Source: an uncultured Clostridia bacterium (GTDB taxonomy: Bacteria; Bacillota; Clostridia; Oscillospirales; Oscillospiraceae). Taken from it: 64,000 nt of DNA. Below, in pieces: positions 39,447 through 62,722 of this stretch (position 1 is the stretch's first letter; each line of letters opens with the position of its first letter). A model generated the notes under the pieces. That model saw only the letters and a list, made by a program, of their open reading frames with translations. It was not told the DNA's origin and did not search any database. The position numbers and the translations under genes were made by a program. The stretch is from contig CAMWFH010000001.1 in assembly GCA_947173485.1 (NCBI GenBank), positions 1 through 64,000 on the forward strand, given 5' to 3'.

Positions 39447-39449
39447 GCC

Positions 39450-43354: not shown

Positions 43355-43421
43355 GAAGCCAAGCAACTCTCTATTCCCTTGGATGTCTCTTGGATCATCG
43401 TCAATAAAAGAAAAAGCGGAC

Positions 43422-43450
43422 TTCCCTTATCATTAAAGGTATGGTAGAAT
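43422..43450 (+). promoter_or_regulatory. Candidate promoter of the DUF2200 gene
   Basis: TTCCCT (43422-43427), 17 bases, TAGAAT (43445-43450). The in-frame ATG at 43441 overlaps it, favouring the start at 43480. Confidence 0.5.
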
Positions 43451-43479
43451 ACGGTATCATGATCAGGAGCGTATTGAAA

Positions 43480-43830: not shown

Positions 43831-43842
43831 GAGGGAGCAGTC

Positions 43843-44244: not shown

Positions 44245-44454
44245 GGCACGCTGTTATGTAACTTCGGTCTTCTCACAGAACCACCTCAGCGGATGTTCCT
44301 CCGCCGCAGGCAGTCTTTAGCAGGGATCTGGAAAGCCGTCTTGATCGAGAAGATCTTCTTTTGGAAAAATCAAAACGAAATAATTTGAAAATTTTATTTT
44401 TTTGATTGCATTTATTGAGATATCGGTTATACTACAAGTGAGGAGGGCACTGTT
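44245..44454 (+). promoter_or_regulatory. Intergenic region with the promoter of the ATPase-RloB pair
   Basis: TTGCAT (44406-44411), 16 bases, TATACT (44428-44433). The segment 44345-44433 is strongly AT-rich compared with the neighbouring genes, a sign of foreign origin. Nothing else is recognised. Confidence 0.6.
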
Positions 44455-45756
44455 ATGCTGATCGAATTCAAATTTTCAAATTATCGCTCTTTCCGTGACG
44501 AGAGCTGCCTGTCTATGGAGCCTATGGGCCTGAGCAGGATGAAGGAATGCCTGATCCCGTATAAAGCAGTTGGCCTTTTGCCGGCGGTCGCTCTCTTTGG
44601 AAAAAACGGGGGCGGCAAAACGAATGTGATCCGCGCCTTCTGGTTCGGCGTAAAATTTATCTGCAATGCCCAGAGGACACAGCACGAAACTGCCCCGATC
44701 CCTGTTCAGCCCTTCCTGCTGGATGACACCTCGCAGAACGAGCCCACCGCGTTTGAGTTTTCCTATATACTGGACAACATCAAATACATCTATGGATTTG
44801 CCGCAACGAAAACGGCAGTTGTGAAGGAATACCTGTACCATTCTCCAAAGGGCCAGAAGGCGATGGTCTTTTTCCGTAACGGCCAGAACTTTGAATTTCG
44901 GGAGGGGCCTGACAAGAAAAAAAGGGAGCTGATCAGTGAGGCGGTAGCCCCCAATCAGCTGTATTTCTCTGTGGCGTGTACGATGAACGAGCAATCCTGT
45001 ATGTCCGCTATGCGCTGGTTCCGGGAGCATCTGCTGTTCTCCCGTGATTATACAGACCTCTCCGACCAGCTGATCGAGCATTCGGAAGATCCCAATATGC
45101 TACAAGCCATCAAGCGCTACGCCATAGAAGCGGACCTGGGGATCCAGGATATGAAATTTGAGGTCAAAAGTACAGAGCTGACAACGGCGGATCAGCTGCC
45201 GGCCGATCTGCCGGCAGGGATCATAGCGGCCTTGAAGCAGTTCGCAAAGGCCCTGTCAGACGACCCCAATGTTTCTGAGCGCAAGCTGCAAATGGGGGAA
45301 GTGAACGTCACCTCCTTCCACTGCGGCCTGGACAAAGAGGGGCGGGGCCATCTGTATGGCCTGCCGCTTTCTGTCGAGTCAGACGGCACAAGACAGCTCA
45401 TGGCTCTGGCCCCGGCCATTGAATATGTACTGTCCTGCGGCGGAGTGCTGCTTGTGGATGAACTGGAGAACCGGATACATCCTCTTCTCATGCAGCTGAT
45501 CATCTCGAAGTTTCAAAACCCGAGATCCAATCCGAACCACGCACAGCTCATTTTTACCACCCACAATACGGAATTGCTGGACGCCGGCCTGATTCGAAAA
45601 GACCAGATCTATTTTGTGGATAAGGATAAAACAAGCGGAAGCTCCTCTCTATACAGCATCAGCGAGTTTTCTACCACCACCAACGAGAATATCCGCAAGG
45701 GCTATCTGCTGGGGAAATATGGCGCTACACCCGAGCTGGATATAGAGGAGGTATAG
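44455..45756 (+). CDS. AAA-family ATPase (RloA/AbiLi-like)
   Basis: A 433-residue SMC/AAA_21-type ATPase. Walker A is FGKNGGGKTNVI near residues 48-59 after the typical start MLIEFKFSNYRSFRDE; Walker B is GGVLLVDELENRIHP and the final motif LIFTTHNTELL. The layout matches the ATPases found with RloB-family proteins (RloAB; AbiLi/AbiLii), which are thought to defend against phage. A ribosome site GAGGAGG precedes the start. The partner gene starts two bases after this gene's stop but is truncated, so the pair may be inactive. Less GC-rich than flanks. Confidence 0.85.
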   Translation: MLIEFKFSNYRSFRDESCLSMEPMGLSRMKECLIPYKAVGLLPAVALFGKNGGGKTNVIRAFWFGVKFICNAQRTQHETAPIPVQPFLLDDTSQNEPTAFEFSYILDNIKYIYGFAATKTAVVKEYLYHSPKGQKAMVFFRNGQNFEFREGPDKKKRELISEAVAPNQLYFSVACTMNEQSCMSAMRWFREHLLFSRDYTDLSDQLIEHSEDPNMLQAIKRYAIEADLGIQDMKFEVKSTELTTADQLPADLPAGIIAALKQFAKALSDDPNVSERKLQMGEVNVTSFHCGLDKEGRGHLYGLPLSVESDGTRQLMALAPAIEYVLSCGGVLLVDELENRIHPLLMQLIISKFQNPRSNPNHAQLIFTTHNTELLDAGLIRKDQIYFVDKDKTSGSSSLYSISEFSTTTNENIRKGYLLGKYGATPELDIEEV

Positions 45757-45758
45757 CT

Positions 45759-46103
45759 GTGGCACGCCAGACGAGAAAGACAAAACCGCTGATCTACGTT
45801 TTCTGTGAAGGGGAGAGCGAACAAGCCTACACCAAATTCCTGAAAGAGCGGTTTTCGGATACCGCGGTCATCAAATGTGTGCCGCAGACCGGCTTGTTCC
45901 AGGAGGCGAAGGACAAATTTGATAAGGAGCCGCGGTATCGGGACAATGTGGATGTGACAGACGAGATCTGGTTTTTCTTCGATGTGGAGGACGATGAAGT
46001 TCCCGCCGGGCCGAGGGCCTCTATCCCCTGTTGGTGTCCTTTGCGTTCGGAAAGACGGCAAAGTATGGGATATCGATCCAGATATGCAGCATACCCGAGG
46101 TGA
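45759..46103 (+). pseudogene. Truncated RloB-family gene
   Basis: GTG start after GAGGAGGTATAGCT. The first ~78 residues match RloB: KPLIYVFCEGESEQAYTKFLKERF and DEIWFFFDVEDDE. Intact RloB proteins are about 200 residues. After DVEDDE the frame runs through unrelated sequence (PAGPRASIPCWCPL) to a chance stop, because from about 46,000-46,020 the DNA is the 3' end of the convergent minus-strand gene. So the C-terminal two thirds of RloB are gone, a deletion or recombination junction. Confidence 0.8.
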
Positions 46104-46458
46104 GCGGCAAGAAGCGTATGGTGGTGGCATAGAGCAGCAGCTTTTGCAGGGTATACATGAACTCATCCCCCCTGAACTCCACATAGGTACACCAGAGCTC
46201 GATGGTGGCCGTGAAAGATGAATAGTCTATGGTCGCTTTGATCTTCCCGCAGAACTCCTTGACGATCGCCTCACAATCCTTGATCAGTCCATCAAAGATC
46301 TGGGGGGCTGGCGGAAAGACCAGATACATATGCTCCCGCATGAAGCGCCGCTGTTTGGCGAGGAGCGCCAGGACCTCCGCCGGGCTGATGGAATCGATCG
46401 CGTCCATCACCTCTTCCCCCATGGGGTATTCCTTCTCATACACATAATTCTCCATCAT
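46021..46458 (-). CDS. Protein of unknown function paired with a SLOG protein
   Basis: A 145-residue soluble protein not assigned to a family. It has an acidic N-terminus, an RRFMREHMYLVFPPAPQIFDG segment and a beta-rich centre (KATIDYSSFTATIELWCTYVEF). ATGATG overlaps the SLOG gene's stop (ATGA) and AGGAGG is placed just upstream, so both are translated together. The 3' end lies at the junction that truncated RloB; whether its own C-terminus is native cannot be decided. Confidence 0.6.
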   Translation of the reverse strand: MMENYVYEKEYPMGEEVMDAIDSISPAEVLALLAKQRRFMREHMYLVFPPAPQIFDGLIKDCEAIVKEFCGKIKATIDYSSFTATIELWCTYVEFRGDEFMYTLQKLLLYATTIRFLPLTSGMLHIWIDIPYFAVFPNAKDTNRG

Positions 46459-46985
46459 CTGCCTCCTGTATGTGTGATATCTCTGGATATGGGGTCGATC
46501 GTGATGACCTCCCGCCCCTGTTCCTTGGCATAGCGCACCGTCATCCCCGTCCCGCTGCGGTAGGCCCCATCGTAGACCGCCAGCAGGCTGGGAGCGACAC
46601 ACACCAGACAGCGGTTGCGCTCCAGCATACAGTTCTTGTGATAAACGCGGCTCACATAGGACGCTTCATCGGCCTGCCCCAGAAGGGAGCGATACCGCTC
46701 CTGCGCCGGGGCGGGCCATTTGCTTTCCTGGCCCTCACAGGGCAGGACGCAGCGGAGCCTGACAGCGGGACGGTCCTTTTTGAGGTCCAGGGCAATCTGT
46801 GCCGCCCAGAGGTCCACTCCCTGGGCCATGCCAGAGAAGAAGTCCGTCATGCCCCGGTCTGCCAATGCTTTCATCTGCCCGGCCAGGACCTGTTTCAGCA
46901 ATACGCAGTCCCGGGCGGCCTCGTTGTAGCCCCAGGGGAAACTTTTGGGCCGGTGGCCCGTGATGGCGCAAGCGCTTTTGTTCAT
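46455..46985 (-). CDS. SLOG-family (DUF1273/YpsA-like) protein
   Basis: A 176-residue Rossmann-like protein: ACAITGHRPKSFPWGYNE near the start, FFSGMAQGVDLWAAQIALDLK and the second nucleotide-binding segment VCVAPSLLAVYDGAYRSGTGMTVRYAKEQG. This is the DUF1273/YspA-YpsA group of the SLOG superfamily, suggested to bind nucleotides or nucleotide-derived ligands and frequent on phages and integrative elements. Together with the downstream unknown gene it forms a two-gene unit divergent from an HTH gene. Confidence 0.82.
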   Translation of the reverse strand: MNKSACAITGHRPKSFPWGYNEAARDCVLLKQVLAGQMKALADRGMTDFFSGMAQGVDLWAAQIALDLKKDRPAVRLRCVLPCEGQESKWPAPAQERYRSLLGQADEASYVSRVYHKNCMLERNRCLVCVAPSLLAVYDGAYRSGTGMTVRYAKEQGREVITIDPISRDITHTGGR

Positions 46986-47112
46986 ATGGTATCAGACCCT
47001 TTCTATTATGAGTATAAAACTATAGTATCTATTTTAATTTCTATTTAGATAATATATATGTAATCATTGATAAAAAATAATGCTATCATGCTTTAGATAG
47101 CAGGTGATACAA
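46986..47112. promoter_or_regulatory. AT-rich divergent control region
   Basis: 127 bases, far richer in A+T than the surroundings. TTTAGATA occurs twice (47044-47051 and 47092-47099), and TATCAT at 47084-47089 could be a -10 for the HTH gene. The HTH protein probably binds here, but the sites are only suggested. Confidence 0.4.
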
Positions 47113-47409
47113 ATGAATCTTGATGTAAGTGCCCGGATAAAAGAATTAAGAATGGCGCGCGGACTGTCCACAAATAAACTCTCTAATATGGCGGGATTAT
47201 CACAAAGTTATGTGCGGAAATTGGAGAGGGGCGAGAGCAAACCAACAGTCGAATCCTTGGAATTGTTGTGTCATGCGTTGGGGATCACATTCGAGGATTT
47301 CGTCAATTATAAGGATAAATCTGTCCTTCAACTCCAAGCGATCAAGATCATCGGCACATTGAGCGACGAGCAACTGGAAGGCTTTTGCAAATTGATGGAT
47401 TCGGACTGA
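47113..47409 (+). CDS. XRE-family helix-turn-helix regulator
   Basis: A 98-residue DNA-binding protein; residues 5-60 form an HTH_3 domain (IKELRMARGLSTNKLSNMAGLSQSYVRKLE, RGESKPTVESLELLCHALGITFEDF). The C-terminal ~35 residues probably mediate dimerisation. AGGTG lies before the ATG at 47113; a GTG at 47104 is possible but less likely. Such small regulators typify mobile elements. Confidence 0.85.
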   Translation: MNLDVSARIKELRMARGLSTNKLSNMAGLSQSYVRKLERGESKPTVESLELLCHALGITFEDFVNYKDKSVLQLQAIKIIGTLSDEQLEGFCKLMDSD

Positions 47410-47535
47410 TCGATCAGGAAGAACGTGGACGAACGCTGTTGCTGTGCCGAACACCGTCTAAATTAGTATATATCAACTTGCGCAATATTGCAATACCAGT
47501 ATTTTTAGGATGGAAGCACTATCTGCGGTGATTAT

Positions 47536-47790
47536 ATGTCGAAACTATTGGGCAGCGAGACATTGGGCAACAACATCAAAAGGATACGCTGCTCTTGTGG
47601 GCTGACACAAGAACAGACTGTAGCTAGATTACAGGTGCTAGGCTCTCCGATCAGCCGCAGCACCTATTCGCTTATAGAAATAGGACGGGGCAACATTTTT
47701 GTAAATGACTTAGTAGGTCTACAAAAAGTATTCGGTGTCAGCTATGACGAGTTCTTTAGAGATATCCCTCCTTCCCGTGACCCTCAATGA
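47536..47790 (+). CDS. Small XRE-family helix-turn-helix protein
   Basis: An 84-residue HTH protein: GNNIKRIRCSCGLTQEQTVARL followed by SRSTYSLIEIGRGNIFVNDLVGLQKVFGVSYDEFF is the XRE pattern. No strong ribosome site is visible (GGTGATTAT), so expression may be low. The 126-base gap upstream (47410-47535) has an AT-rich part with no clear promoter. Confidence 0.75.
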   Translation: MSKLLGSETLGNNIKRIRCSCGLTQEQTVARLQVLGSPISRSTYSLIEIGRGNIFVNDLVGLQKVFGVSYDEFFRDIPPSRDPQ

Positions 47791-47827
47791 CGAGGCTCAG
47801 CGGCCCAACTATCATATCACAGTGAAC

Positions 47828-47861
47828 AGGCCCCCCGGATAAGACCGGAGGGCCTGCTTTG
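47828..47861. terminator. Terminator between the HTH gene and the convergent membrane-protein gene
   Basis: Stem CAGGCCCCCCGG with CCGGAGGGCCTG (one mismatch) around ATAAGA, followed on the plus strand by CTTTGTTTT. Confidence 0.7.
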
Positions 47862-47887
47862 TTTTACATATCAGATCATTTCCGCGG

Positions 47888-48532
47888 TCAGCCCGCCTGG
47901 GCGCCGCCCCACTCCACCACGGTGAAGCCCTCTCGAACGAAGGGCGTGAAGGTCTGGGGCTCGATCTCCACAGGCCGTTCCAGGGGCCGCCAGGCCATGA
48001 ACACCCGGAGGACACTGTCCGGGGCCGGGTCGATCTCCAGCCGGGCGCTCTCCTCATAGGCCGCGCCCTGGAAGGCGATCAGATCGTAGGCGTTCTCCTG
48101 CATCCGTGGCATCCAGTAGGTGATAAAGTCGTTGTACTCCCTAGGCGTCAGCCCCATCTCCGCCAAGACCTCCCGCAGGAACGTCCCGGTGTCCTTCCCG
48201 GCGACGCAGAAGCCCTGGGAGAAGTCCCAGTCCGTGTCAGAGATCCCTTCCCAGAAGAGGTAGCCGTACTCATTCCCGGCTCCATCATAGAGGGTGCCGT
48301 CCGGCCGGGCGGTGACCCGCCAGCCGTCCTCATAGGCCGGCCAGGCGGCGGTCAGCTCCCCATCCAGGTCCAGCCGGACCGTCACCTCTGTCTCTTCCTC
48401 CGGGTAGAGGTAGATCACCGGCTTTTCATCCACCTCGCCGCTGTCACGTTGGAGCAGATACAGTCCGCCCAGGACCAACAGCGCCACGACCGCGATAAAA
48501 GCAACGATCTTCCCAAGTTCCTTTTTATCCAT
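47888..48532 (-). CDS. Membrane-anchored protein with KPVIYLYP motif
   Basis: A 214-residue protein. Residues 8-27 form one membrane segment; then an external beta-rich domain beginning DEKPVIYLYPEEETEVTVRL, a motif seen in many uncharacterised Clostridial surface proteins. Later parts (YGYLFWEGI, FCVAGKDTGTFLREVLAEMGLTPREYNDFITYWMP) agree with that family. Role unknown. The gene stands alone, ending before a shared terminator. Confidence 0.75.
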   Translation of the reverse strand: MDKKELGKIVAFIAVVALLVLGGLYLLQRDSGEVDEKPVIYLYPEEETEVTVRLDLDGELTAAWPAYEDGWRVTARPDGTLYDGAGNEYGYLFWEGISDTDWDFSQGFCVAGKDTGTFLREVLAEMGLTPREYNDFITYWMPRMQENAYDLIAFQGAAYEESARLEIDPAPDSVLRVFMAWRPLERPVEIEPQTFTPFVREGFTVVEWGGAQAG

Positions 48533-48572: not shown

Positions 48573-51125
48573 TTATTTCTTCTTCGCGTAGGGCGTATCC
48601 GCCAGGGGCAGGCTGTAGCGCCGCTGGCCGTCCAGCTGATAGTACGCCTCGGAGATAGCGGGAGCAGTGGGGATGGAAGTGATCTCGCCGATGCCGATCG
48701 CGCCATAGGCCAGATCCAGTCCCGGCTTCTCCACCACGATGGGCACGATCTCCGGGATCTGGTTGGCCCGCAGCAGGCCCAGGGTGCCGAACTTGGCGGT
48801 GGGCTTGCAGTCCTTCAAGGGGAACTGCTCCGTCAGGGCATAGCCCATGCTCATGACGACGCCGCCCTCGATCTGCCCCTCGCAGCTGAGGGGGTTCACC
48901 GCCTTACCCACATCGTGGGCGGCGACCATGCGCTTGATCTTGCCGTTCTCGTCCAGGACGCAGACCTGGGTGGCGTAGCCATAGGCCACATGGCTCACCG
49001 GGTTGGGCACGTTGGCCCCCAGGGGATCCGTCTTGGCCAGATACTCGCCATAATACTCCGTGCCGTTCAGGTCGGAGATGGTCTTGCCCTCCAGGGCCTT
49101 CTTCAGATCCACGCAGGCCCGGCGGCAGGCCTCGCCGGTGATCAGGGTCTGCCGGGAGCCGGAGGTCATGCCGGCGTCCGGCGCGTTATAGGTGTTGGAG
49201 CGCTCATAGACGAACGTATCAGGGCCGATGCCCAGAGTCGTGCAGCAGATCTGGGTCAGCACGGTGCCCAGGCCCTGGCCGATGCAGGAGGCGCCCGCCC
49301 GGATATGGATCTTCCCGTCCTCCACGGTCAGCCGGCAGCGGCCCCAGTCGGGGATGCCCACGCCCACGCCGGCATTCTTCATGCAGCAGGCCAGGCCCAC
49401 ATACTTCTCCCCCTCGATGTAGGGCTTCACTGCCTCCAACGTCTCCACCAGCCCGGTCTCCGGGCCCACGATCTGGCCGTTGGGCAGCACCTCGCCGGGG
49501 CGGATGGCGTTGCGCATACGGATCTCCCAGGGGGAGATGCCCACCAGCTCCGCCATCTCGTTGAGCAGGGTCTCCACGCAGAAGCAGGTCTGGGTCACGC
49601 CGAAGCCCCGGAAAGCGCCGGCGGGGGGATTGTTGGTGTAGTAGGCATATCCGTCCACCTGGAAGTTCTCATAGTGATAGGGGCCGGAGGCGTGGGTGCA
49701 GGCCCGCTCCAGCACCGGCCCGCCCAGGGAGGCATAGGCCCCGGTATCGGTGACCACGTTGGCGGCCACGCCCTGGATGATGCCGTTCTCGTCGCAGCCC
49801 ATGGCAAACTCCATCTCCATGGGGTGGCGTTTGGGGTGGATCAGGATACTCTCCGCCCGGCTGAGCTTGCACTTCACCGGCTTCTTCGTCAGGTACGCCG
49901 CCAGGGCCGCCAGGTGCTGGACCGTCACGTCCTCCTTGCCGCCGAAGCCGCCGCCCACCAGCATATTCTTGACCTTCACCTTCTCCCGGGGCAGGCCCAG
50001 CATGGGCGCGGTCTGGTGCTGGGCATCGTAGGCCCCCTGGTCGGAGGAGAGGATCATCACCCCGTCCCCATCGGGATAGGCCACCGCGCACTCCGGCTCT
50101 AAGAAGGCGTGTTCGGTGAAGGGGGTAGAGAACTTGTGGCTGAGCACATACTTGCTCCGGGCGATGGCCAGGGCCGCGTTGCCCCGCTGGACGTGCTTGT
50201 GGGCGAAGAGGTTGCCGCTCCGGTGGACCAGGGGGGCGTCATAGGCCTTGGCCTCCTCCGGGGAGCGGACGGGCTTCAGCACCTCATACTCCACCAGGAT
50301 CATCCGCTTGGCCTTCTCCACGATCTCCGCAGTCTCCGCTACCACCAGGCAGATGGCGTCGCCCAGGTAGTGGGTGGTGCCGCCTATGGGGATCATGGTG
50401 TCCCAGTCCTGGGTCAGGTGGCCCACCTTGTTCGACCCAGGGATGTCCTCGGCGGTGTAGACCGCCACCACGCCGGGCATCTGCAGCGCCTCCTCGGTGT
50501 GGATGGCCTTGACGATGGCCCGGGGGTAGGCGGAGCGGACGGCGGAGGCGTAGAGCATCCCGTCCAGATAGACATCGTCAGGGTACTGGCCGTAGCCCTG
50601 GACCTTCTCCGCCACGTCCACCCGGTGGACCCGGGAGCCCACGCTCCAGTCGCTCTCCTTCTCTGGGACCTGGCCCTCCCGGAAGATCTGGGCCGCCAGT
50701 TTCACCGCCTTGATGATCTTCACATAGCCGGTGCAGCGGCAGATATTGTTCCGCAGCGCGTAGGCGATCTCCTCCTCGGTGGGGTCCGGATTCGTATCCA
50801 GCAGTCCCTTGGCGCAGATGACCATGCCGGGGATGCAGAACCCACACTGGACCGCCCCCGCCTGACCAAAAGCGTAGGTATAGACCTCCTTCTCAAAGTC
50901 GCTGAGGCCCTCCACGGTCAAGATCCGCTTCCCCTCCAGCTTGTCTGTCTGGAGGACACAGGCCCGGCTGGCCTTGCCGTCCACCAGCACCGTACAGGTG
51001 CCGCAGGCGCCCTCGCTGCACCCGTCCTTCACGCTGGTCAGATGCAGCTCGTCCCGCAGATAGCGCAGCAGCTTCCGGTTGCCCTCGACGCTCACGCTCT
51101 GTCCGTTCACGATAAATGTTGCCAT
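48573..51125 (-). CDS. Selenium-type molybdenum hydroxylase (xanthine dehydrogenase family), single chain
   Basis: An 850-residue oxidoreductase. N-terminal ferredoxin domain with cysteines 36, 41, 44 and 56 (CSEGACGTC), then a four-helix [2Fe-2S] domain with Cys94, 97, 129 and 131 (CGFCIPG, CRCTG). The rest is the molybdopterin domain: GGGFGGKEDV, PPAGAFRGFG, and the catalytic Glu in IGIGEITS near the C-terminus. It has no FAD domain, like aldehyde oxidoreductase Mop, and full-length pattern matches the predicted selenium-dependent molybdenum hydroxylase 1 family. Substrate is unclear; purine or nicotinate-like heterocycles are possible. ATG follows AAGGAGAAAGCATC. Its accessory genes are not in the window. 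Confidence 0.88.
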   Translation of the reverse strand: MATFIVNGQSVSVEGNRKLLRYLRDELHLTSVKDGCSEGACGTCTVLVDGKASRACVLQTDKLEGKRILTVEGLSDFEKEVYTYAFGQAGAVQCGFCIPGMVICAKGLLDTNPDPTEEEIAYALRNNICRCTGYVKIIKAVKLAAQIFREGQVPEKESDWSVGSRVHRVDVAEKVQGYGQYPDDVYLDGMLYASAVRSAYPRAIVKAIHTEEALQMPGVVAVYTAEDIPGSNKVGHLTQDWDTMIPIGGTTHYLGDAICLVVAETAEIVEKAKRMILVEYEVLKPVRSPEEAKAYDAPLVHRSGNLFAHKHVQRGNAALAIARSKYVLSHKFSTPFTEHAFLEPECAVAYPDGDGVMILSSDQGAYDAQHQTAPMLGLPREKVKVKNMLVGGGFGGKEDVTVQHLAALAAYLTKKPVKCKLSRAESILIHPKRHPMEMEFAMGCDENGIIQGVAANVVTDTGAYASLGGPVLERACTHASGPYHYENFQVDGYAYYTNNPPAGAFRGFGVTQTCFCVETLLNEMAELVGISPWEIRMRNAIRPGEVLPNGQIVGPETGLVETLEAVKPYIEGEKYVGLACCMKNAGVGVGIPDWGRCRLTVEDGKIHIRAGASCIGQGLGTVLTQICCTTLGIGPDTFVYERSNTYNAPDAGMTSGSRQTLITGEACRRACVDLKKALEGKTISDLNGTEYYGEYLAKTDPLGANVPNPVSHVAYGYATQVCVLDENGKIKRMVAAHDVGKAVNPLSCEGQIEGGVVMSMGYALTEQFPLKDCKPTAKFGTLGLLRANQIPEIVPIVVEKPGLDLAYGAIGIGEITSIPTAPAISEAYYQLDGQRRYSLPLADTPYAKKK

Positions 51126-53109: not shown

Positions 53110-54174
53110 TCAAGGGACCAACATGATCTTCATCGCCGCGGGGTCTTTCTTCGGATAGGCGAACCCCTCTTCCCAGTCCTGGAGCTTAAAGGTGTGAGAG
53201 ATCAGCCCCTCTGTCCGCAGCAGGCCGCTCTCGATCCCACGGATGACCGGCGCGTAGCAGTGGGCGGAGAGATGGGACCCGACGATGGTCAGCTCCTTCC
53301 CATCCCCGATCAGGTTCCAATTCGCCGTCACATCGGTGGGATACTGGCCGAACTGCACGAAGCGCCCATGATTTTTCAATGACCGCAGTCCCTGCATAGC
53401 GCTGCTGGGATGGCCGGAGGCCTCGATATACACATCGCACCCCCGCCCGCCGGTCAGCCGGTGGATCTCCTCCGCCACATCGCAGCGCGCCGGATCCAAC
53501 AGGACCTCCGCCCCGAAGGCTTTGGCCAGCTCCAGGCGGTGTTCATTGCTGTCGATCCCGATGATCAGCTTTGGCAGCGACAGCCGGACCACATTGGTGA
53601 TGGCGCAGCCGATCGCGCCGAGCCCCCCGACAGCCACCACGTCCGTATGCCTCACCGCCGCCCGCTCCGCTGCGTGCATCCCGCAGGCATAGGGCTCCAC
53701 CAGCGCCCCCTGCTCGGTGGTGAAGCCTTTGGGCAGCTTGTGCTTGATGGCGGCCGCGGGGATCTTGACATACTCCGCAAACCCTCCATGGGCGATATTC
53801 TTCAAGCCGAACAGCTGCATCTCGCTGCACATCCAGTATTCTCCGCGCCGGCAGTCCTCACACCGGCCGCAGGGAACGATCTGCTCCGCCACCAGCAGGT
53901 CGCCTAAAGCATAGCCGGTCACATCCGGCGCCATCCCCACGATCTCACCGCAGAACTCATGGCCGGGGATCTCCGGCGGCTCCATCAGCATATCGCCCTT
54001 CCCGGTCCCCCAGGTGTCCGGCAGGCCCGCCAGCTCCTTGATGTCCCCGGCACAGATCCCGCAGCCCTTTACCTTGAGGAGGATATCGCCCTCCCCCAGC
54101 GCCGGACAGGGGAACGGCTCATAGCGGTAATCCCGGGGACCATAGGCCACCAGCGCCATCATCGTCTTTTCCAT
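53110..54174 (-). CDS. Zinc-dependent alcohol dehydrogenase (polyol/threonine dehydrogenase-like)
   Basis: A 354-residue medium-chain dehydrogenase. Catalytic zinc ligands are Cys in GCGICAGDI and His-Glu in GHEFCGEI; the structural zinc lobe is PCGRCEDCRRGEYWMC; the NAD loop is VGGLGAIGCAI. The sequence resembles erythritol/threitol- or sorbitol-type dehydrogenases. It is the last gene of the minus-strand operon, following the yjbQ gene by 12 bases. A likely role is oxidation of an imported polyol to a ketose before or after phosphorylation; this is inferred from context. Confidence 0.88.
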   Translation of the reverse strand: MEKTMMALVAYGPRDYRYEPFPCPALGEGDILLKVKGCGICAGDIKELAGLPDTWGTGKGDMLMEPPEIPGHEFCGEIVGMAPDVTGYALGDLLVAEQIVPCGRCEDCRRGEYWMCSEMQLFGLKNIAHGGFAEYVKIPAAAIKHKLPKGFTTEQGALVEPYACGMHAAERAAVRHTDVVAVGGLGAIGCAITNVVRLSLPKLIIGIDSNEHRLELAKAFGAEVLLDPARCDVAEEIHRLTGGRGCDVYIEASGHPSSAMQGLRSLKNHGRFVQFGQYPTDVTANWNLIGDGKELTIVGSHLSAHCYAPVIRGIESGLLRTEGLISHTFKLQDWEEGFAYPKKDPAAMKIMLVP

Positions 54175-54186: not shown

Positions 54187-54684
54187 CTACTCCCCGATGA
54201 TCTGGATCTGCACTTCCCGCTGCCGCGCCCTGGTCTGGTCCAGGTCCACAAAATAGACCTGCCCAAAGTTCCCCAGATCCAGCCGCCCCTCCGCGATCAC
54301 GATGGACTCGCTCCGTCCCATGAGCACCGAGCGGAGATGGGCATCTGTATTGAGACACATAGGTTTCGTCTCCCCGTGGCTGGCCGCGACCTCTGTTATC
54401 TTGGGACCGGGGTGCATATACTGCCCCTCCCGGCGGCAGGTGGGGATGATCGTCTCCAATACATCCAGCAGGTCCTGCTGCAAATAATCCAGCCCGGTAT
54501 ACGTCTCATCAAAGGAGGGCTCCTGAATCAAGACCGAGCATGTAGTGTGGTGGGAGCAGACTACGCAGACGCCGTTCTGAACGCCGGAGCGCTCCACAGC
54601 GGCCTTCACCTGCTCGGTCACATTGTGAAAGGTGGGGCGCATCCCGGTGGACTGGACACGGAGCGTTTCTCTTTTCACGATCAT
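54187..54684 (-). CDS. YjbQ (UPF0047) family protein, copy 1
   Basis: A 165-residue protein of the YjbQ family, trivially called secondary thiamine-phosphate synthase from an E. coli suppressor effect; the real activity is unknown. The conserved core CVVCSHHTTCSVLIQE (His45, His46), ETYTGLDYLQQDLLDVLE, EGQYMHPGPK (His91), HLRSVLMGRS (His116) and LDLGNFGQVYFVDLDQTR is complete; three or four histidines could bind metal. It differs from E. coli YjbQ in having DxDQTRARxR instead of EFDGPRxR. AGGAG lies seven bases before ATG 54684. One of three paralogues in this operon. Confidence 0.85.
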   Translation of the reverse strand: MIVKRETLRVQSTGMRPTFHNVTEQVKAAVERSGVQNGVCVVCSHHTTCSVLIQEPSFDETYTGLDYLQQDLLDVLETIIPTCRREGQYMHPGPKITEVAASHGETKPMCLNTDAHLRSVLMGRSESIVIAEGRLDLGNFGQVYFVDLDQTRARQREVQIQIIGE

Positions 54685-54707
54685 ATCCTATTCTCCTTTC
54701 GATTCCA

Positions 54708-55235
54708 TCAAACATCCGACAGACACGGCGGGACCGTGCCTCCCGAATCCCTTGCGTTCTGTACCCCTATCACGCAGACCGCAGCCTGCCGCTCCCTGGA
54801 TCTGGTCTGGTCAAAGTCGGCCAGACAGATCCGTCCATGGGCGCCCAGGTCCAGTCTGCCCGCCGCCACCGCCATAGAGACGCTTCGCTTTAGGAGCGAG
54901 GAGCGCAGGTGTCCCTCTGTATTGAGGGCCTCCGGCTTGTCCTCCCCATGCTCCGCGGCGAACCGGGTCGCCTTCTCCCCCGGGTGGAGATACTGTCCCT
55001 CCTTCCGGCAGGTGGGGATGATCTGCTCCAGCACGTCCCACAGATCCTGGTCGATGAATCCGACCCCGTTATAGGTCTCATCCAGGGAGGCAGCCTTCAG
55101 CATCACCGAACAGGTGGTGTGGTGGGTATATACCACGCAGAGCCCCTCGGAGATGCCGGACTGCCGGACCGCCGCCGCCGCCTGCTCGGTGATATCGTGA
55201 AAGGACGGCCTCCCTGCGCAGGAGATGACCTTCAA
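54708..55235 (-). CDS. YjbQ (UPF0047) family protein, copy 2
   Basis: A 175-residue YjbQ homologue with the same core: VVYTHHTTCSVML, DETYNGVGF, PTCRKEGQYLHPGEK, LNTEGHLRSSLLKRS and LDLGAHGRICLADFDQTRSRER. It carries an extra ~10-residue C-terminal tail. The only usable start is TTG at 55235, 15 bases after the TIM stop and without a clear ribosome site, so translation probably depends on ribosomes ending the TIM gene. It is the most divergent copy (LAD instead of FVD/FAD; KRS instead of GRS). Confidence 0.8.
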   Translation of the reverse strand: MKVISCAGRPSFHDITEQAAAAVRQSGISEGLCVVYTHHTTCSVMLKAASLDETYNGVGFIDQDLWDVLEQIIPTCRKEGQYLHPGEKATRFAAEHGEDKPEALNTEGHLRSSLLKRSVSMAVAAGRLDLGAHGRICLADFDQTRSRERQAAVCVIGVQNARDSGGTVPPCLSDV

Positions 55236-55249
55236 ATAGCTGACAGAGA

Positions 55250-55951
55250 CTACGACACTCGCCTCCTCCCCCGCTCGTCAAGGGCACTGCGCACGCTTCG
55301 AATCATCGCCTCCGCCATACCGATAGGATCAGCCGAGCGAAGGACGCCGGAGGCGCTCCCTACGGCCTCCATCCCCGCCAGGACCAGCTCATAGACCTGC
55401 TCCGGCGTCGTGATGCCGCCGGACTGCTCGACGATGATGTTGGGGTCGATGGCCTTGATGGCGCGGACGCTCTCCTGCATATAGTCCATGCCGCTGGCCT
55501 GCTGCCCGCCGATCAGCTCGGTGGGCTCTGGATTGATGATATCCGGCCCCAGGATAGCCACCGCCCGAGCCTCCTCGATGGTGTCCACGCAGACCAGGGA
55601 CAGCAGCCCCAGCTCCCGGGCCCGGCGGATGGTGGCGGAGACAGTGGAGAGAGGGACAGGGCGCTCACAGTGGTTGATGACCACGCCTTGGGCGCCGGCG
55701 GACTGGAGCGCCTCCGGCAGGACATCCGCCATGCCCCGTCCGGGCCGCAGGAGGTCCATATAGGGCGCCAGCACGATCAGCCGCTCCGTCTGCTCAGCGA
55801 CCCGCCGGATCTCTGTATAGGGCGTGATCAGCATGACATCCACGTCATACCGGACAGCCGCGGTGTCCGCGGCCTTGGCGATCCGCAGCACGTCATCGCC
55901 GAAAATGTAATTTTTGATCCCGATCTCAAAATACGGCGTTCTCGGTCTCAT
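55250..55951 (-). CDS. Triose-phosphate isomerase, short archaeal-type
   Basis: A 233-residue TIM-barrel isomerase of the short archaeal class rather than the ~250-residue glycolytic bacterial class. Active-site residues are retained: Lys in IGIKNYIFGD, catalytic His in VINHCERP, catalytic Glu in IINPEPTELIGG and the phosphate loops GGITTPEQVYE and GSASGVL. In tetritol pathways such TIM homologues isomerise tetrulose phosphates, which suits this operon, but triose phosphate cannot be excluded. ATG at 55951 follows GGAGGGAGGACTGCTT and lies inside the end of yjbQ copy 3 (26-base overlap). Confidence 0.85.
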   Translation of the reverse strand: MRPRTPYFEIGIKNYIFGDDVLRIAKAADTAAVRYDVDVMLITPYTEIRRVAEQTERLIVLAPYMDLLRPGRGMADVLPEALQSAGAQGVVINHCERPVPLSTVSATIRRARELGLLSLVCVDTIEEARAVAILGPDIINPEPTELIGGQQASGMDYMQESVRAIKAIDPNIIVEQSGGITTPEQVYELVLAGMEAVGSASGVLRSADPIGMAEAMIRSVRSALDERGRRRVS

Positions 55952-56462
55952 AAGCAGTCCTCCCTCCTTCACAGATGACTGTCACGCGCACTGTCCGCTC
56001 CCTGGCCCGGACCTGGTCGAAGTCGGCAAAATAGATCCTGCCGAACTCCCCCAGCACCAGCTCCCCGTCTACGACCGGGACAGTGACTGAGCGCCCCATC
56101 AGAACAGAGCGCAGATGGGCATCGGTGTTCAGGCTCCAGAAGGGCTCCTCGGACCGCTCTCTGGCGGCGATCTCGATATGCTTGCTGCCCGGATGGAGGT
56201 ATTGCCCCTCGTTCTCGCAGGTGGGCGCGATCTTCGCCAGCGTATTGACCAGGTCACGCATCAGATACTGCTCCCCATAGTAGTCCGTATCATCGGACTG
56301 CTCCTGCACCATGACGGAGCAGGTGGTGTGCTGGGAATAGATCAGGGCGATGCCGCTGACCGCCCCGGCGGCCCTGACGACGCCGGCCACATAGTCCGTC
56401 ATATCGTGGAAGGTAGGCCGGGCCTCCGACCGGATCTGGGTCTGTTCATGTAGGATCCTCAT
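55926..56462 (-). CDS. YjbQ (UPF0047) family protein, copy 3
   Basis: A 178-residue YjbQ homologue: ARPTFHDMTDYV, ALIYSQHTTCSVMVQE (first His replaced by Gln: QH instead of HH), DYYGEQYLMRDLVNTLAKIAPTC, EGQYLHPGSK, LNTDAHLRSVLMGRS, LVLGEFGRIYFADFDQVRARER. So the three copies share a subfamily signature but differ at a key histidine. AGGGGGAATTACT precedes the ATG. It overlaps the TIM start by 26 bases and follows the permease by 48. Confidence 0.85.
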   Translation of the reverse strand: MRILHEQTQIRSEARPTFHDMTDYVAGVVRAAGAVSGIALIYSQHTTCSVMVQEQSDDTDYYGEQYLMRDLVNTLAKIAPTCENEGQYLHPGSKHIEIAARERSEEPFWSLNTDAHLRSVLMGRSVTVPVVDGELVLGEFGRIYFADFDQVRARERTVRVTVICEGGRTAYETENAVF

Positions 56463-56510: not shown

Positions 56511-57476
56511 TCAGGCTTTCCCGGTCTTTTTAAGGCGCTGATAGGAGTCGAACCCGACTGCCGCGATCATCAGGGAGCCCTTGACCGCCAGCTGCACATA
56601 GGAGTTGAGACCGATGGCGATCATCCCGTTGGAGAGCGCCGTCATGATCACCACGCCGATGATGGTCTTGGGCAGCTTGCCCTCGCCGCCGGACATACTG
56701 ATGCCGCCGATCACACAGGCCGTCAGCGCATCGATATAGAGCGTGCCGCCAGCCGTGGTCTGGCCGGAGTTCAGCCGGCCCGTCATGACGACACCAGCTA
56801 TGCCGGCAAAAAAGCCGCAGATGCTGTAACAGAACGTCTTGATCTGGAAGGTGTGGATGCCGGACAGCCGGGCGGCCTCCTCATTGCTGCCTACCGCGTA
56901 GATGTTCCGCCCCAGCTTGGTCTTTTCCAGCAGGAACCAGCCCAGAGCCAGCATGATGAACCAGACGATCACCGACTTGGGGATGATGCCGATGGCCCCC
57001 TGCCCCAGCTCCCGGATGGAGTCCGGGATGCCATAGACCGGCAGGCCGCCATGGGCCAAGTAAGCGATGCCCTGCACGATGTTGGACATGCCCAAGGTAG
57101 CGATCAGCGGCGGCATACTGGTCAGGAAGATGGAGGTCCCGCTCAGAAGGCCCAGGGCGGTGGTCAGGACGATACAGAGCAGCGATGCCGCCCAGACCGG
57201 CCAGCCCTGCTCCACAGTGAGGCAACCTAAGATCACGCTGGTCATCGACACCAGCGCGCCGATGGAGAGGTCGATGCCGCCTACCACCAGGACGATCCCC
57301 AGCCCTACCGCCAGGATGCCCGTGCAGGCGCCCTGCCGGAAGATGGTGATGACATTGCTCATAGACAGGAAGTTCGGATTGCGGATCTGGAAAAAAGCCA
57401 TCATAACGAGCAGGATGATCATGATCGCGTTCCGCTTGACGATGCCAGCGGCAGCCGTCCCTACCCTCTTTTTCAT
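56511..57476 (-). CDS. Ribose-type ABC transporter permease (RbsC family)
   Basis: A 321-residue permease with eight to ten spans, family BPD_transp_2: NVITIFRQGACTGILAVGLGIVLVVGGIDLS and the long helices VLTTALGLLSGTS, LGMSNIVQGIAYL, TACVIGGISMSGGEGK. It forms a homodimer with the RbsA-like ATPase. The start overlaps the ATPase stop by four bases. CUT2 systems bring in monosaccharides or polyols. Confidence 0.92.
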   Translation of the reverse strand: MKKRVGTAAAGIVKRNAIMIILLVMMAFFQIRNPNFLSMSNVITIFRQGACTGILAVGLGIVLVVGGIDLSIGALVSMTSVILGCLTVEQGWPVWAASLLCIVLTTALGLLSGTSIFLTSMPPLIATLGMSNIVQGIAYLAHGGLPVYGIPDSIRELGQGAIGIIPKSVIVWFIMLALGWFLLEKTKLGRNIYAVGSNEEAARLSGIHTFQIKTFCYSICGFFAGIAGVVMTGRLNSGQTTAGGTLYIDALTACVIGGISMSGGEGKLPKTIIGVVIMTALSNGMIAIGLNSYVQLAVKGSLMIAAVGFDSYQRLKKTGKA

Positions 57477-58993
57477 TCTCTCATCTCCTCCGTTCCCCTT
57501 TGCTCCGATCCGGCCGGATAGCCGGAGGCCAGCGTCATCACGGCTTCCTGGGAAAAGGCCGCCTTCTCCAGCACGCCCATCTGCCGCCCCTCATACAGGA
57601 CCAGGATCCTATCGGACATCCCCAGGACCTCCTCCATCTCGGAGGAGATCATGATGATGGAGATCCCGCTCTCGGTCATCTCGTTCATGATACGGTAGAT
57701 CTCCTGCTTGGCCCCTATATCGATCCCCCGGGTCGGCTCGTCAAAAATGACCACCTTCACATCGGAGATCAGCCACTTGGCCAGGACGATCTTCTGCTGG
57801 TTGCCGCCGCTGAGGTTCTTGACCAGCTGCCGCAGGGAGGGCGTGGCGATCCGCAGCTTCTCGATCTCCTCCTTCACCACCGCCGTCTGCTTTCGGTCAT
57901 TGACGATGCCGAAGGTACAGAAGCGGCCCACACTGGCGCTGGCGATGTTCCTGTCCACCGGCAGTCCCAAAAACAGCCCGTCCCGCTTCCGGTCCTCTGA
58001 GGCATAGGCGATCCCGGCCCCCAGAGCATCCTTCGGCGTTCGGATCCGGAGGGGGCGGCCCTCCATCAGCACCTCGCCCTTCTCTATGGGGTCCGCGCCG
58101 AAGAGCAGGCGGGCCAGCTCTGTCCGCCCCGCCCCTACAAGGCCGGCGATCCCCAGGATCTCCCCCTTCCGCAGGGCAAAATGGATATCCTGGTCCCCGT
58201 TCCCCCAGAGGTGGCGGACCTCAAAGACCGGCTCTCCCGGCGTCACGGTCCGCCGGGGGAACATATCGGAGATGCTCCGCCCGATCATGCCGGCGATCAG
58301 ATCCTCGCGGGTCAGGCCCTCTATCCCCCGGACATCCACCACTCTGCCGTCCCGCATGATGGTGACCCGGTCCGCCAAGGCGAAGATCTCCTCCAAGCGG
58401 TGGGAGATATAGATCACCGTGGTGCCCTCCTGGCGGAGCCGGCGGACCAGCTGGAAGAGGATGTCCACCTCGCGGACCGTCAGCGGCGCGGTGGGCTCGT
58501 CCATCACCAGCACCTTCGCCCCCCGGTGGATCGCCCGTCCGATCTCCACCAGCTGCTGCTCGGCAACGGACAGCTCCCGCACATACGCCTTAGGGTCGAT
58601 ACGGACCTGCATCCGCTCGAACAGCGCCTCCGTCTCCCGCTCCATGCCCTGCCGGTCGATCCAAAGGGCGCTCCCCTTCAGGTCCCCCGTGAAGATGTTC
58701 TCCGCCACAGTCAAGGTGGCGAATTGATTGAACTCCTGGTAGACGATCTCGATATGCAGCTCATGGGCCCTCTGGGGCGTCATATGGGCAAAGGAGGTCC
58801 CATTGACCACGATCTCCCCGCTATCGGGCACATAGGCACCGGAGAGGACCTTCATCAGTGTGGATTTCCCCGCGCCGTTCTCGCCGACGATCGCATGGAC
58901 CTCGCCTTCGCGAAAGGCGGCTGATACATCGTTCAGGGCACGCACACCTGGAAATTCTTTGGTGATATGCCGCAGTTCAAGGATATTGTGCAA
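57473..58993 (-). CDS. Ribose-type ABC transporter ATP-binding protein (RbsA family)
   Basis: A 506-residue ATPase with two fused domains. First domain: GENGAGKST, LSVAEQQLVEIGRAI, VLVMDEPTAPL. Second: GLVGAGRTE (degenerate Walker A, normal for RbsA), LSGGNQQKIVLAKWL, VVIFDEPTRGID. Length is as usual. The start is TTG at 58993, with GAGGGGAGGACGG directly upstream; the open frame extends ~70 codons further but those overlap the stem-loop and receptor gene. Confidence 0.92.
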   Translation of the reverse strand: MHNILELRHITKEFPGVRALNDVSAAFREGEVHAIVGENGAGKSTLMKVLSGAYVPDSGEIVVNGTSFAHMTPQRAHELHIEIVYQEFNQFATLTVAENIFTGDLKGSALWIDRQGMERETEALFERMQVRIDPKAYVRELSVAEQQLVEIGRAIHRGAKVLVMDEPTAPLTVREVDILFQLVRRLRQEGTTVIYISHRLEEIFALADRVTIMRDGRVVDVRGIEGLTREDLIAGMIGRSISDMFPRRTVTPGEPVFEVRHLWGNGDQDIHFALRKGEILGIAGLVGAGRTELARLLFGADPIEKGEVLMEGRPLRIRTPKDALGAGIAYASEDRKRDGLFLGLPVDRNIASASVGRFCTFGIVNDRKQTAVVKEEIEKLRIATPSLRQLVKNLSGGNQQKIVLAKWLISDVKVVIFDEPTRGIDIGAKQEIYRIMNEMTESGISIIMISSEMEEVLGMSDRILVLYEGRQMGVLEKAAFSQEAVMTLASGYPAGSEQRGTEEMRE

Positions 58994-59078: not shown

Positions 59079-60104
59079 TCACTTGGCCAGGACGCGCTCC
59101 CCTGTCTCCACGTTGTAATACTGTTCGATGTTCTCTGTGCTGACGATGTCGTTGCGGAAGTAGACCAGCCGGGGCTCCTGGAGCTCTCCGCCGCGGATAT
59201 GGTCCACACCCTTGACGAACAGGTCTGTCATCAGCTCCACCAGGCCCAAGTCCACCGTGGCATAGAACACGCTGTCCTCCGCGATGGCCTTGAACTCCTC
59301 CAGGGAGCCGTCGTTGGTGATCACGCCCAGCCCGTCCTTGATACCGGCCGCGGTGTAGGCCTCCGCCACACCGATAGCGGTGTTGGCGCTGTCGGTGGCG
59401 ACGATGGCAGCCACATCGTTATAGGCACTGATCACGCTCTCGCCGATCTGCACGCCGGCGGACTGTCCGCTGCCGCCATAGGCCACCACGTCAAAGGTCA
59501 CGATGTTGGCGTTGGGCAGCTTTTCCTTGATCCTCTCCACCGCCAGGTTGGTGCGGGTGACGCTGTACTCGGTGTTCATAGCGGCAATGATGATGATGGT
59601 ATCGCTGTCGCCCTTGCTGTACTTCTCATAGGCCTGGATCGCCGCGTCGCCCAAGGCATGGCCCAGGTCGTCCATATTGGCCATCGTGCAGTAGATCGCG
59701 CCCTCCACGTCCTCATCGTAGGCCACGATGGTGATGCCCTGGGCCAGGGCCTTCTGTACCACGTCCCGAATCGCCTCATAGCCAGTCCAGTTCTGGAGGT
59801 AGATCATATCTACATCCGAGGCGATGAAGTTCTCCAGGCCCTGGACCATGGATTCCGGGGAGACCTGGCAGTCCCAAGTGATAATCTCCACGTCCATGGT
59901 CTCCGCCACGGCCTTGATGTTGTTGACCGCCTCCACAAAGATGGACGCGCCCATCCAGTCCAGGATCACACCGCACTTCAATGTGCCGTCCTCCTCTGTT
60001 GGGCTGTTGTCAGGAGGTGTGTCGGGCGTTTTGCTGCCCTCCCCGCAGGCCGCCAAGGAAAGCACCATAGAAAGTGCCAGGAGCAGAGCAAAGACCTTCT
60101 TCAT
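59079..60104 (-). CDS. Ribose-type ABC transporter substrate-binding lipoprotein
   Basis: A 341-residue receptor with lipoprotein signal (MKKVFALLLALSMVLSLAAC, Cys20-like lipobox). The mature part starts with an acidic Pro/Thr-rich linker and then is Peripla_BP_4: CGVILDWMGASIFVEAVN, VDMIYLQNWTGYEAIRDV, VAAIVATDSANTAIGVAEAY. The ligand would be a small sugar or polyol. ATG at 60104 follows AAGGGATGGATAACA. Stem-loop downstream at 59016-59045. Confidence 0.92.
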   Translation of the reverse strand: MKKVFALLLALSMVLSLAACGEGSKTPDTPPDNSPTEEDGTLKCGVILDWMGASIFVEAVNNIKAVAETMDVEIITWDCQVSPESMVQGLENFIASDVDMIYLQNWTGYEAIRDVVQKALAQGITIVAYDEDVEGAIYCTMANMDDLGHALGDAAIQAYEKYSKGDSDTIIIIAAMNTEYSVTRTNLAVERIKEKLPNANIVTFDVVAYGGSGQSAGVQIGESVISAYNDVAAIVATDSANTAIGVAEAYTAAGIKDGLGVITNDGSLEEFKAIAEDSVFYATVDLGLVELMTDLFVKGVDHIRGGELQEPRLVYFRNDIVSTENIEQYYNVETGERVLAK

Positions 60105-60174: not shown

Positions 60175-61689
60175 TCAGCCGAACTGATCGGCCAGCGCCT
60201 GGAACAGCGCCTGGTAGCGGCGGTAGCCGCTGGTATAGAGCTGGTGGCGTTCCGGGGAGGGGACATATGTCTGCCGAATCAGTATGGTCTTATCCAGCAG
60301 CGCCAGCACCTGCTCCTCCCCATATTCCGGGAACAGCGAGACAGCGGCGGCCCCCAGGGAGGTGGTCTCATGGTTGACCAGGGAGCAGGCCGGCAGGCCG
60401 CACACATCCGCCTTGATCTGGTTCCAGACGCTGCTGCTGCCCCCACCGCCGCAGCAACGGAGCTGCCGCGGCGTCAGGCCGCACTGCTCCGCGATCATCT
60501 CCACGTTCTCCCGGAGCATGAACGCGATCGACTCCAGGATGCTCCGGGTGATGTCTGACTGGGTGTTCTCTAAGCCCAGGCCAAAGATAACGCCTCGGGC
60601 CTGGGGGCGGAACGAGGGTTGGAAGGAGCCGTTGAAGTAGGGGATCGTGAGCAGGCCGTTGGACATAGGCGGACTTTTCTCCGCCTGCTCATCCAGCAGG
60701 CTGTAGACCGATATCCCTCTGCGGGCCGCCTCCTGCTGCTCCGCCTGACACAGCTCATCCTTGTACCACTTGAGCACCATCCCACCGGTCATACAGATGG
60801 GACAGATCAGATACTTGTCCCGAAGCGCGTGCCAATAGGTGGTGACCGGCCGGGGCGAGAGGAGCGCCTGACGGTCTCCTGTCACCGCGATAGCCACGAC
60901 CGTGCCGGTGGTCTCGGTAAAAACGCCCTCCTGGGCGCTGCCGGACCCGATGGCAGAGGACACCTGGTCCATAGCGGTGGTCACTACTAGTGTATCTGAC
61001 GCGAAGCCCAGGGCGGCGCAGACCGCCGGCTCCACAGTCCCCACCGGGGTCCCGCAGTCCAGGATCTCCGGGATCTTGTCCGGGTCCAGGGCAAACTGCT
61101 CCAGGATCTCTGTCCACAGCCGGTCATGCAGGATATCATAATACCCCGTCGTGCAGCTGACCCCCTTGTTGGAGACGAAGCGCCCTGTGAGGCGCAGGAT
61201 GAGATAGTCCTCCAGCAAGAGAAAATAGGCCGTCCTCTGATAGACCTCCGGCTCATGGCCCTTGATCCACAGCAGCTTGCACAGGGGCCACACCGCCGTC
61301 ATATCGGCGATGCCCGTGTTCCGCCGGAAGATGTCCATATCGATCTGACTGGCGATCATGCAGCTCTCCGCCTGGGCCCGGGTATCCAGCCACACGATGG
61401 CATCCCGCAGGGCTCGTCCGGTCCCGTCTACCGGGATGATGGTCTCCCCCTGAGTCGTGATCCCGATGCGCTCGATCTGGTCCGGCGTCACGCCGCAGTG
61501 CTCACAGATCTGCCGGGTCCCCTGACAGAACTGGGTCCAGTACGCCTCCGGGTCCAGCTCGATCACGCCGTTGGGCAGGGAGCGCAGCTTATACTCCCCC
61601 GCAATGGTGCCCAGACAGCGCAGGTCCCTGGTGAACAGGCTCGTTTTCATGGAAGTCGTCCCAACATCTGCGATCAGGATATATCTCAT
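60175..61689 (-). CDS. FGGY-family carbohydrate kinase
   Basis: A 504-residue kinase of the FGGY family (xylulose, ribulose, glycerol, erythritol kinases). N-domain DVGTTSMKTSLF with ATP loop, ELDPEAYWTQF, TTQGETIIPVDGTGRALRDAIVWLDTRA; C-domain CCGGGGSSSVWNQIKADVCG and AAAVSLFPEYG. A Gly/Ser-rich active loop and length fit. It is the first gene after the consensus promoter at 61740-61768, and its GGGGAGGACGCT ribosome site is strong. In context it phosphorylates the imported sugar/polyol or the ketose made by a dehydrogenase. Confidence 0.92.
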   Translation of the reverse strand: MRYILIADVGTTSMKTSLFTRDLRCLGTIAGEYKLRSLPNGVIELDPEAYWTQFCQGTRQICEHCGVTPDQIERIGITTQGETIIPVDGTGRALRDAIVWLDTRAQAESCMIASQIDMDIFRRNTGIADMTAVWPLCKLLWIKGHEPEVYQRTAYFLLLEDYLILRLTGRFVSNKGVSCTTGYYDILHDRLWTEILEQFALDPDKIPEILDCGTPVGTVEPAVCAALGFASDTLVVTTAMDQVSSAIGSGSAQEGVFTETTGTVVAIAVTGDRQALLSPRPVTTYWHALRDKYLICPICMTGGMVLKWYKDELCQAEQQEAARRGISVYSLLDEQAEKSPPMSNGLLTIPYFNGSFQPSFRPQARGVIFGLGLENTQSDITRSILESIAFMLRENVEMIAEQCGLTPRQLRCCGGGGSSSVWNQIKADVCGLPACSLVNHETTSLGAAAVSLFPEYGEEQVLALLDKTILIRQTYVPSPERHQLYTSGYRRYQALFQALADQFG

Positions 61690-61846: not shown

Positions 61847-61875
61847 TTGACATTTTGTCGCATCTATCTTATAAT
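61847..61875 (+). promoter_or_regulatory. Promoter of the epimerase-DeoR-dehydrogenase genes
   Basis: Perfect consensus TTGACA (61847-61852), 17 bases, TATAAT (61870-61875). A consensus promoter without visible activator need suggests control by repression. Confidence 0.85.
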
Positions 61876-61921
61876 CTGCTATATCTCCCATCGTATGGGC
61901 ACGGAGAGGAGGTCCGCTGCT

Positions 61922-62722
61922 TTGAAAATTTCTTGCACGAACACGATGATCCCTGGCGCGACCTTGACAGAGAAAGCCAGCCGGCTCCTGGATCTGGGGT
62001 TCGACGGTATCTCAGTCTTTGCGGAGATCGAGAGCTGGACTCCGGAGAAGGAGGAGGAACTGCTCCACTTGACAGAGACCACTGGTATCACCGTCTGTGA
62101 GTTCTGCTTCTCTGGAAAGGACTACGGAAAGCTGATGCACAAGGACCCGGCCACCGCCGCCCGCTCTAAAAGGATCTATGAGCGCGCCATCGCGATCGGC
62201 AACCAGCTGGGCTCTGTCTCGGAGCTGGAGTACCAGTACACGGTCCGGGAGGAGATTCCCCTCCTGTACCCCTATCTGAAGATGGACCCGACGGAACAGG
62301 CGCGCTTCTGCGGCATCTACGCATCCCTGGCCAGTCAGGCGGAGGGGGACTCCTGCCTTCTGCTGGAGCCGATCAACCGGTATGAGTCACCCTATCTGAA
62401 CACCCTGCGGGACAACGCGGAGATCCTGGAGCAGGTAGCCCTGCCCCGGACTGGGCTCTTGTTCGACACCTTCCACATGGCTCTGGAGGAGACGGACCTG
62501 TGTGACGCCTTCCGCCGCTACGCGCCTCTGATCCGCCATGTGCATCTGGGGGACCACAACCGCCTGCTGCCCGGGAAGGGGAACCTGCCCTGGCCCCGGT
62601 TCCTGTCGGTCCTCCAGGAGACCGGCTACCAGGGCTTCGTCAACCTGGAATGCGCGGTGCTGGGCGAGGATGTGCCGGCGCAGCTGGCCAATACGGTCCG
62701 GTTCCTCCGGTCCCTGTCCTAA
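61922..62722 (+). CDS. Sugar phosphate isomerase/epimerase (xylose isomerase-like TIM barrel)
   Basis: A 266-residue protein of the AP-endonuclease-2/xylose-isomerase-like superfamily. The four metal-binding positions are visible: Glu in LLEPINRYESP, Asp in LLFDTFHM, His in HVHLGDHNR and Glu in FVNLECAVLGE. Relatives include tagatose 3-epimerase, L-ribulose-5-P 3-epimerase and tetrulose-phosphate isomerases such as EryC. TTG at 61922 has AGGAGG nine bases upstream and lies after the promoter; an ATG at 61895 is less likely. It probably converts the ketose (phosphate) made from the imported substrate. Confidence 0.85.
   Translation: MKISCTNTMIPGATLTEKASRLLDLGFDGISVFAEIESWTPEKEEELLHLTETTGITVCEFCFSGKDYGKLMHKDPATAARSKRIYERAIAIGNQLGSVSELEYQYTVREEIPLLYPYLKMDPTEQARFCGIYASLASQAEGDSCLLLEPINRYESPYLNTLRDNAEILEQVALPRTGLLFDTFHMALEETDLCDAFRRYAPLIRHVHLGDHNRLLPGKGNLPWPRFLSVLQETGYQGFVNLECAVLGEDVPAQLANTVRFLRSLS

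Follow-up and report, generated by a model that had tools for sequence, protein, structure and literature searches.

Why should a single operon carry three genes of the UPF0047/YjbQ family? In the stretch of DNA that we analysed (64,000 nucleotides from an uncultured Clostridia bacterium, hereafter the window), three such copies lie close together on the minus strand, and a first-pass annotation had proposed that they arose by duplication, that they differ at a key histidine, and that they may have split roles or form mixed oligomers, one copy possibly being non-catalytic. To our knowledge the family, though it occurs in bacteria and archaea and its structures have been solved repeatedly, has no accepted function. 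We therefore asked how the copies are related, whether any of them is impaired, and in what process they might take part. The features of the locus are collected in Table 1.

Table 1. Features of the YjbQ locus, with positions in the window.
Feature	Coordinates	Strand	Basis and remarks
YjbQ copy 1, clade A (SHH)	54187..54684	minus	165 aa; PF01894 8.7e-30
YjbQ copy 2, clade A (THH)	54708..55235	minus	175 aa from TTG, start uncertain; PF01894 1.1e-23
Archaeal-type triose-phosphate-isomerase-like protein	55250..55951	minus	ATG at 55951, overlaps copy 3 end; NF003302 147.7 bits vs cut-off 132; 1hg3 TIM 2.1e-30
YjbQ copy 3, clade C (SQH)	55926..56462	minus	178 aa; PF01894 2.6e-27
Zinc-type alcohol/polyol dehydrogenase	53110..54174	minus	PF08240, PF00107
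Sugar ABC permease (RbsC-like)	56511..57476	minus	PF02653 2.1e-36
Sugar ABC ATPase, two ABC domains	57473..58987	minus	PF00005, AraG/RbsA-like
Sugar-binding lipoprotein (Peripla_BP_4)	59079..60104	minus	PF13407 1.3e-22
FGGY carbohydrate kinase	60175..61689	minus	xylulose kinase 2itm 1.8e-45; autoinducer-2 kinase 5ya0 2.8e-43
Ketose 3-epimerase-like TIM barrel, divergent	61847..62722	plus	D-psicose 3-epimerase 7x7w 1.9e-21
DeoR-type regulator		divergent from operon	judged by eye

Membership of the family is clear for all three genes. Their matches to PF01894 (103.7, 84 and 95.8 bits for copies 1, 2 and 3) exceed the curated cut-off of 27, those to TIGR00149 (84.9, 69.4 and 84.8 bits) exceed the cut-off of 67.75, marginally in the case of copy 2, and the whole genome has no further PF01894 gene. 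The motifs listed in the first-pass annotation were borne out by the alignment, in which E86-G87-Q88-Y89-x-H91-P92-G93-x-K95, L111-N112-T113-x-x-H116-L117-R118-S119 and D147-x-D149-Q150-x-R152-x-R154-x-R156 are invariant among the copies; canonical YjbQ relatives have EFDGPR in place of the last of these. Pairwise identity is 56% between copies 1 and 2, 49% between copies 1 and 3, and 45% between copies 2 and 3, and each copy retains the family-invariant residues H46, D71, Y89, H91, N112, H116 and D149. A predicted model of copy 1 (pLDDT 95.2) superimposed on 1vmj (Z 19.6, rmsd 1.4, 139 residues aligned), consistent with a YjbQ fold. A structure search with this model offered no function from remote fold relatives: YjbQ structures were found at Z 15.8-19.6, and the next rows had Z of at most 4.4. 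The copies matched PF01894 alone, with no match to PF00596 or PF01116 (class II aldolase/AraD). They thus have the same fold and invariant residues as known UPF0047/YjbQ members (PF01894, TIGR00149; 1vmj, 2p6c, 1vph, 1vmf, 1xbf), but the subfamily that they represent is distinguished by about 25 extra residues, which lie in two insertions (positions 58-64 and 92-110), by DFDQxRxR in place of EFDGPR, by HTTCSV in place of the usual HTTAG, by H, Q or R in place of P or M at residue 45, and by a neighbourhood of triose-phosphate isomerase (TIM) and sugar genes.

To place the copies among their relatives, we scanned a profile of the three against a genome collection covering 84,980 species, which yielded 55 loci from Clostridia, Spirochaetes, Opitutales, Kiritimatiellae, Chloroflexi and other groups. 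The subfamily is rare within the phylum (12 of 398 sampled genomes), UPF0047 overall being found in 200 of 299. In a tree built without position 45 (support values are given as pairs), the subfamily was monophyletic at 100/99 and stood apart from canonical YjbQ, in agreement with the earlier claim that it is distinct. It splits into clade A, which includes copies 1 and 2, clade B, and clade C, which includes copy 3, with moderate support at the deep branches (A 98/22, B 93/92, C 91/90); proteins added later carry the clade labels of their nearest neighbours in a FastTree tree. Clades A and C are each present in several phyla. Within clade C, copy 3 is sister (100/80) to the copy of Anaerotruncus massiliensis (L007), whose operon has the order C, TIM, A, dehydrogenase, with one A gene.

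The proposal of common origin by duplication held for one pair of copies only. Constraining copies 1 and 2 to group together gave a likelihood 29.7 log units above that of the free quick search (p-AU 0.86), whereas grouping all three, as a local triplication would require, was 65 log units worse, with a borderline p-AU of 0.055. All the copies belong to one subfamily, but copy 3 and copies 1 and 2 sit in separate old clades, and the same three-copy set was found in none of the 60 close relatives searched. These trees point to copies 1 and 3 as ancient paralogues that stem from the old split between A and C, and for copy 2 the most probable origin is an additional, lineage-specific tandem duplication of an A-type gene.

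The histidine difference must be read against this clade structure. Position 45 is indeed H, H and Q in copies 1, 2 and 3, as had been reported, but the description of it as a key histidine is contradicted by its variation. Canonical YjbQ proteins have P at this site in 30 cases, M in six, and A and E in one each (n = 38); the aligned solved canonical structures have P, L or A; clade A has H in 32 proteins and R in 11; clade C has Q in 29 of 32; and relatives linked to PTS genes have P or S. Such variation among canonical and clade-C proteins rules out position 45 as a catalytic switch. Moreover, 11 genomes have no subfamily copy other than a clade-C protein, so QH proteins work there without an HH partner, and comparison of the sequences indicates that QH is a normal functional state. 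Most likely the H/Q difference marks the clade, not a loss of catalysis; it is perhaps linked to substrate fit. H46, D71, Y89, N112 and H116 are invariant in the subfamily, and H46 is also found in 35 of the 38 canonical proteins.

If any copy is impaired, the sequences point to another one. At 35 near-invariant sites, each kept by 92% or more of relatives, copy 1 shows no departure, copy 3 shows one (G164C), and copy 2 shows six (E55A, S44T, D114E, G123K, F140H and F145L). Site 55, where copy 2 has Ala, is acidic in 142 of 144 relatives. The end branch of copy 2 in the tree is 1.98, as against 0.71 and 0.80 for the other copies, and its start is poorly placed: an AGGAGG (Shine-Dalgarno-like) sequence lies 26 nt before a TTG that is the sole in-frame start, with no in-frame ATG or GTG. 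The third-position GC of copy 2 (0.80) is still gene-like, and it is therefore not an old pseudogene; it is a fast-evolving gene that may be losing its function. Given the long branch, E55A and the lack of a well-placed start, copy 2 would be the impaired copy, if there is one. The suggestion that copy 3 is the non-catalytic version did not survive this comparison, and with a single site of 35 lost, in a clade that often supplies the only subfamily copy of a genome, copy 3 can be rejected as a pseudo-enzyme. What is left of the idea of split roles is a plausible division between copy 3 and copies 1 and 2, because these sit in different ancient clades. The clade structure shows which copies to compare, and the invariant residues and copy 2 now deserve more attention than the variable histidine.

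The order of genes in the operon is FGGY kinase, sugar-binding protein, ABC ATPase, permease, copy 3, TIM-like gene, copy 2, copy 1 and dehydrogenase. The TIM-like gene, which lies between copies 2 and 3 within 54187-56462, was absent from the first-pass annotation. Its product retains the catalytic K, H and E, as do the archaeal-type triosephosphate isomerases (PRK04302/NF003302; 1hg3, 2h6r); it differs from them in being encoded in a bacterial sugar operon, with a separate housekeeping TIM elsewhere in the genome, and its substrate may be a different ketose phosphate. The window has the kinase, but an AraA-like gene was not recognised in it, and the genome's PF00596 and PF01116 genes are on other contigs. 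The matches of the kinase and the binding protein did not name a substrate.

This association recurs widely. An archaeal-type TIM gene lies immediately upstream of a subfamily YjbQ gene at 70 of 94 loci, overlapping it in 36, as against none of 38 canonical YjbQ genes; the other 24 loci have no TIM gene directly upstream. Among the 70 TIM relatives the catalytic residues are well kept (K in 64, with six gaps, H in 68 and E in 70). Distances among the TIM and YjbQ proteins are correlated in a mirror-tree comparison (r 0.72, matched in 0 of 1000 permutations), a value that includes shared species history. Other recurrent neighbours are FGGY kinase, AraA-like isomerase, SIS and Rpe-like genes, and transporters, the SIS and Rpe-like genes accompanying B-types. 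The kinase and the AraA-like isomerase, both found in many subfamily loci, recall the araBAD-type pentose operon, but no AraD/class II aldolase-type epimerase was recognised at the subfamily loci, and the isomerase there falls far under the AraA cut-off (140.7 versus 622).

We know of no substrate or reaction for members of the subfamily. The reading that we favour, and consider somewhat better than an even bet, is that the subfamily works in carbohydrate catabolism with a dedicated archaeal-type TIM-like enzyme, copies 1 and 3 acting at different phosphosugar steps and copy 2 being a fast-changing duplicate of A type. Family membership, clades, conservation, gene neighbourhood and the divergence of copy 2 are observed directly; a role as pathway enzymes, the type of reaction proposed below and the assignment of A and C to different steps are inferred from them and seem to us most likely. 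The FGGY kinase would phosphorylate a sugar, the subfamily YjbQ proteins would act after the kinase and around the TIM-like enzyme, with copy 3 and copy 1 at different steps on a phosphorylated ketose, and the TIM-like enzyme would take or supply a triose or ketose phosphate. We consider an isomerase- or epimerase-like proton transfer on a sugar phosphate to be the likeliest chemistry, and retro-aldol cleavage the next likeliest. The putative catalytic set is H46/E55/D71/H91/N112/H116/D149, and such an invariant set of His, Asp, Glu and Asn would suit acid-base or metal-assisted sugar-phosphate chemistry. Association with a TIM-like isomerase, transporters and a sugar kinase narrows the substrates that could be tested to a few. 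A bolder version, which we offer tentatively and hold to be rather less probable, is that the TIM-linked YjbQ proteins make up a new enzyme class acting on phosphosugars, whether as epimerase, isomerase or retro-aldolase, in which A and C carry out consecutive steps of a single undescribed sugar pathway; if true, it would give a real reaction to a function-unknown family of bacteria and archaea.

Thiamin phosphate synthase activity is ascribed to YjbQ family proteins in the title of Morett 2008 (cited in PMC4731195); such an activity of canonical YjbQ differs from the proposed sugar reaction and counts against our reading. The titles and abstracts of the papers searched that name YjbQ or UPF0047 mention no sugar role, and no paper among them was found that pairs YjbQ with TIM and a kinase.

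Retro-aldol cleavage also figures in the alternative that clade A is a new DHAP-releasing aldolase, which would cleave the ketose-1-phosphate made by the FGGY kinase and leave the DHAP to TIM. This rival stays in play because an aldolase of DhnA type was found at the locus in 8 of the 11 C-only genomes but in none of the 38 A genomes; operons with A, FGGY kinase and isomerase have no recognised aldolase within the stretch examined. However, the pattern is confounded by ancestry, since the C-only loci belong to other phyla (Chloroflexi, Syntrophaceae). Aldolases encoded outside the locus could also do the work, and the PTS-type relatives retain both a class II aldolase and YjbQ; we regard this alternative as unlikely.

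Slightly less probable still is an obligate hetero-oligomer of the kind raised by the first-pass annotation, which describes the family as homotrimeric; in it, A and a B or C partner would form a mixed trimer with both contributing to the active site. B or C is also present in 35 of the 41 genomes with an A-type, and the remaining six are all MAGs or bins. Yet C-types occur alone in the 11 genomes noted above and B-types in two others (G068 and G203, 97-98% complete), the partner is encoded on another strand or contig in many genomes, and each clade retains its own full set of invariant residues. That the copies are ordinary 'secondary thiamine-phosphate synthases', multiplied for dosage, is very improbable, for although all three pass the TIGR00149 cut-off, copy 2 does so narrowly, profile matches revealed no thiamine gene in the operon, the genome carries a TMP-TENI (ThiE family) gene at another place, and the genes that recur beside the subfamily belong to sugar metabolism.

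Several observations concern more distant or unusual loci. In the PTS-linked distant relatives, which occur on plasmids of Lacticaseibacillus and Enterococcus as well as in other genomes, the gene order is class II aldolase, TIM, YjbQ. Plasmid PTS operons with such relatives include L077 and L078 (Enterococcus faecium) and L076 (Lacticaseibacillus paracasei); one arrangement combines a class II aldolase with TIM, and another pairs an Rpe-like epimerase with an HxlB-like SIS isomerase. Matches were found in 152 Enterococcus plasmid records. Two apparent gene fusions were set aside. TIM and YjbQ form a single 409-aa ORF in L018 (7269-8495), but the near-identical L021 has two genes, and the fusion is probably a one-base indel. 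In a Treponema MAG (L019, 7965-9482), an A-type YjbQ is in frame with the C-terminal part of an AraA-like isomerase, on a contig that may be chimeric.

Elsewhere in the window, positions 28001-48000 have a GC content of 0.52-0.59 between flanks of about 0.60-0.70 and are possibly an acquired island. On the minus strand at 48573-51125, an 850-aa ORF was judged by eye to encode a fused iron-sulfur and molybdenum hydroxylase (xanthine dehydrogenase-like).
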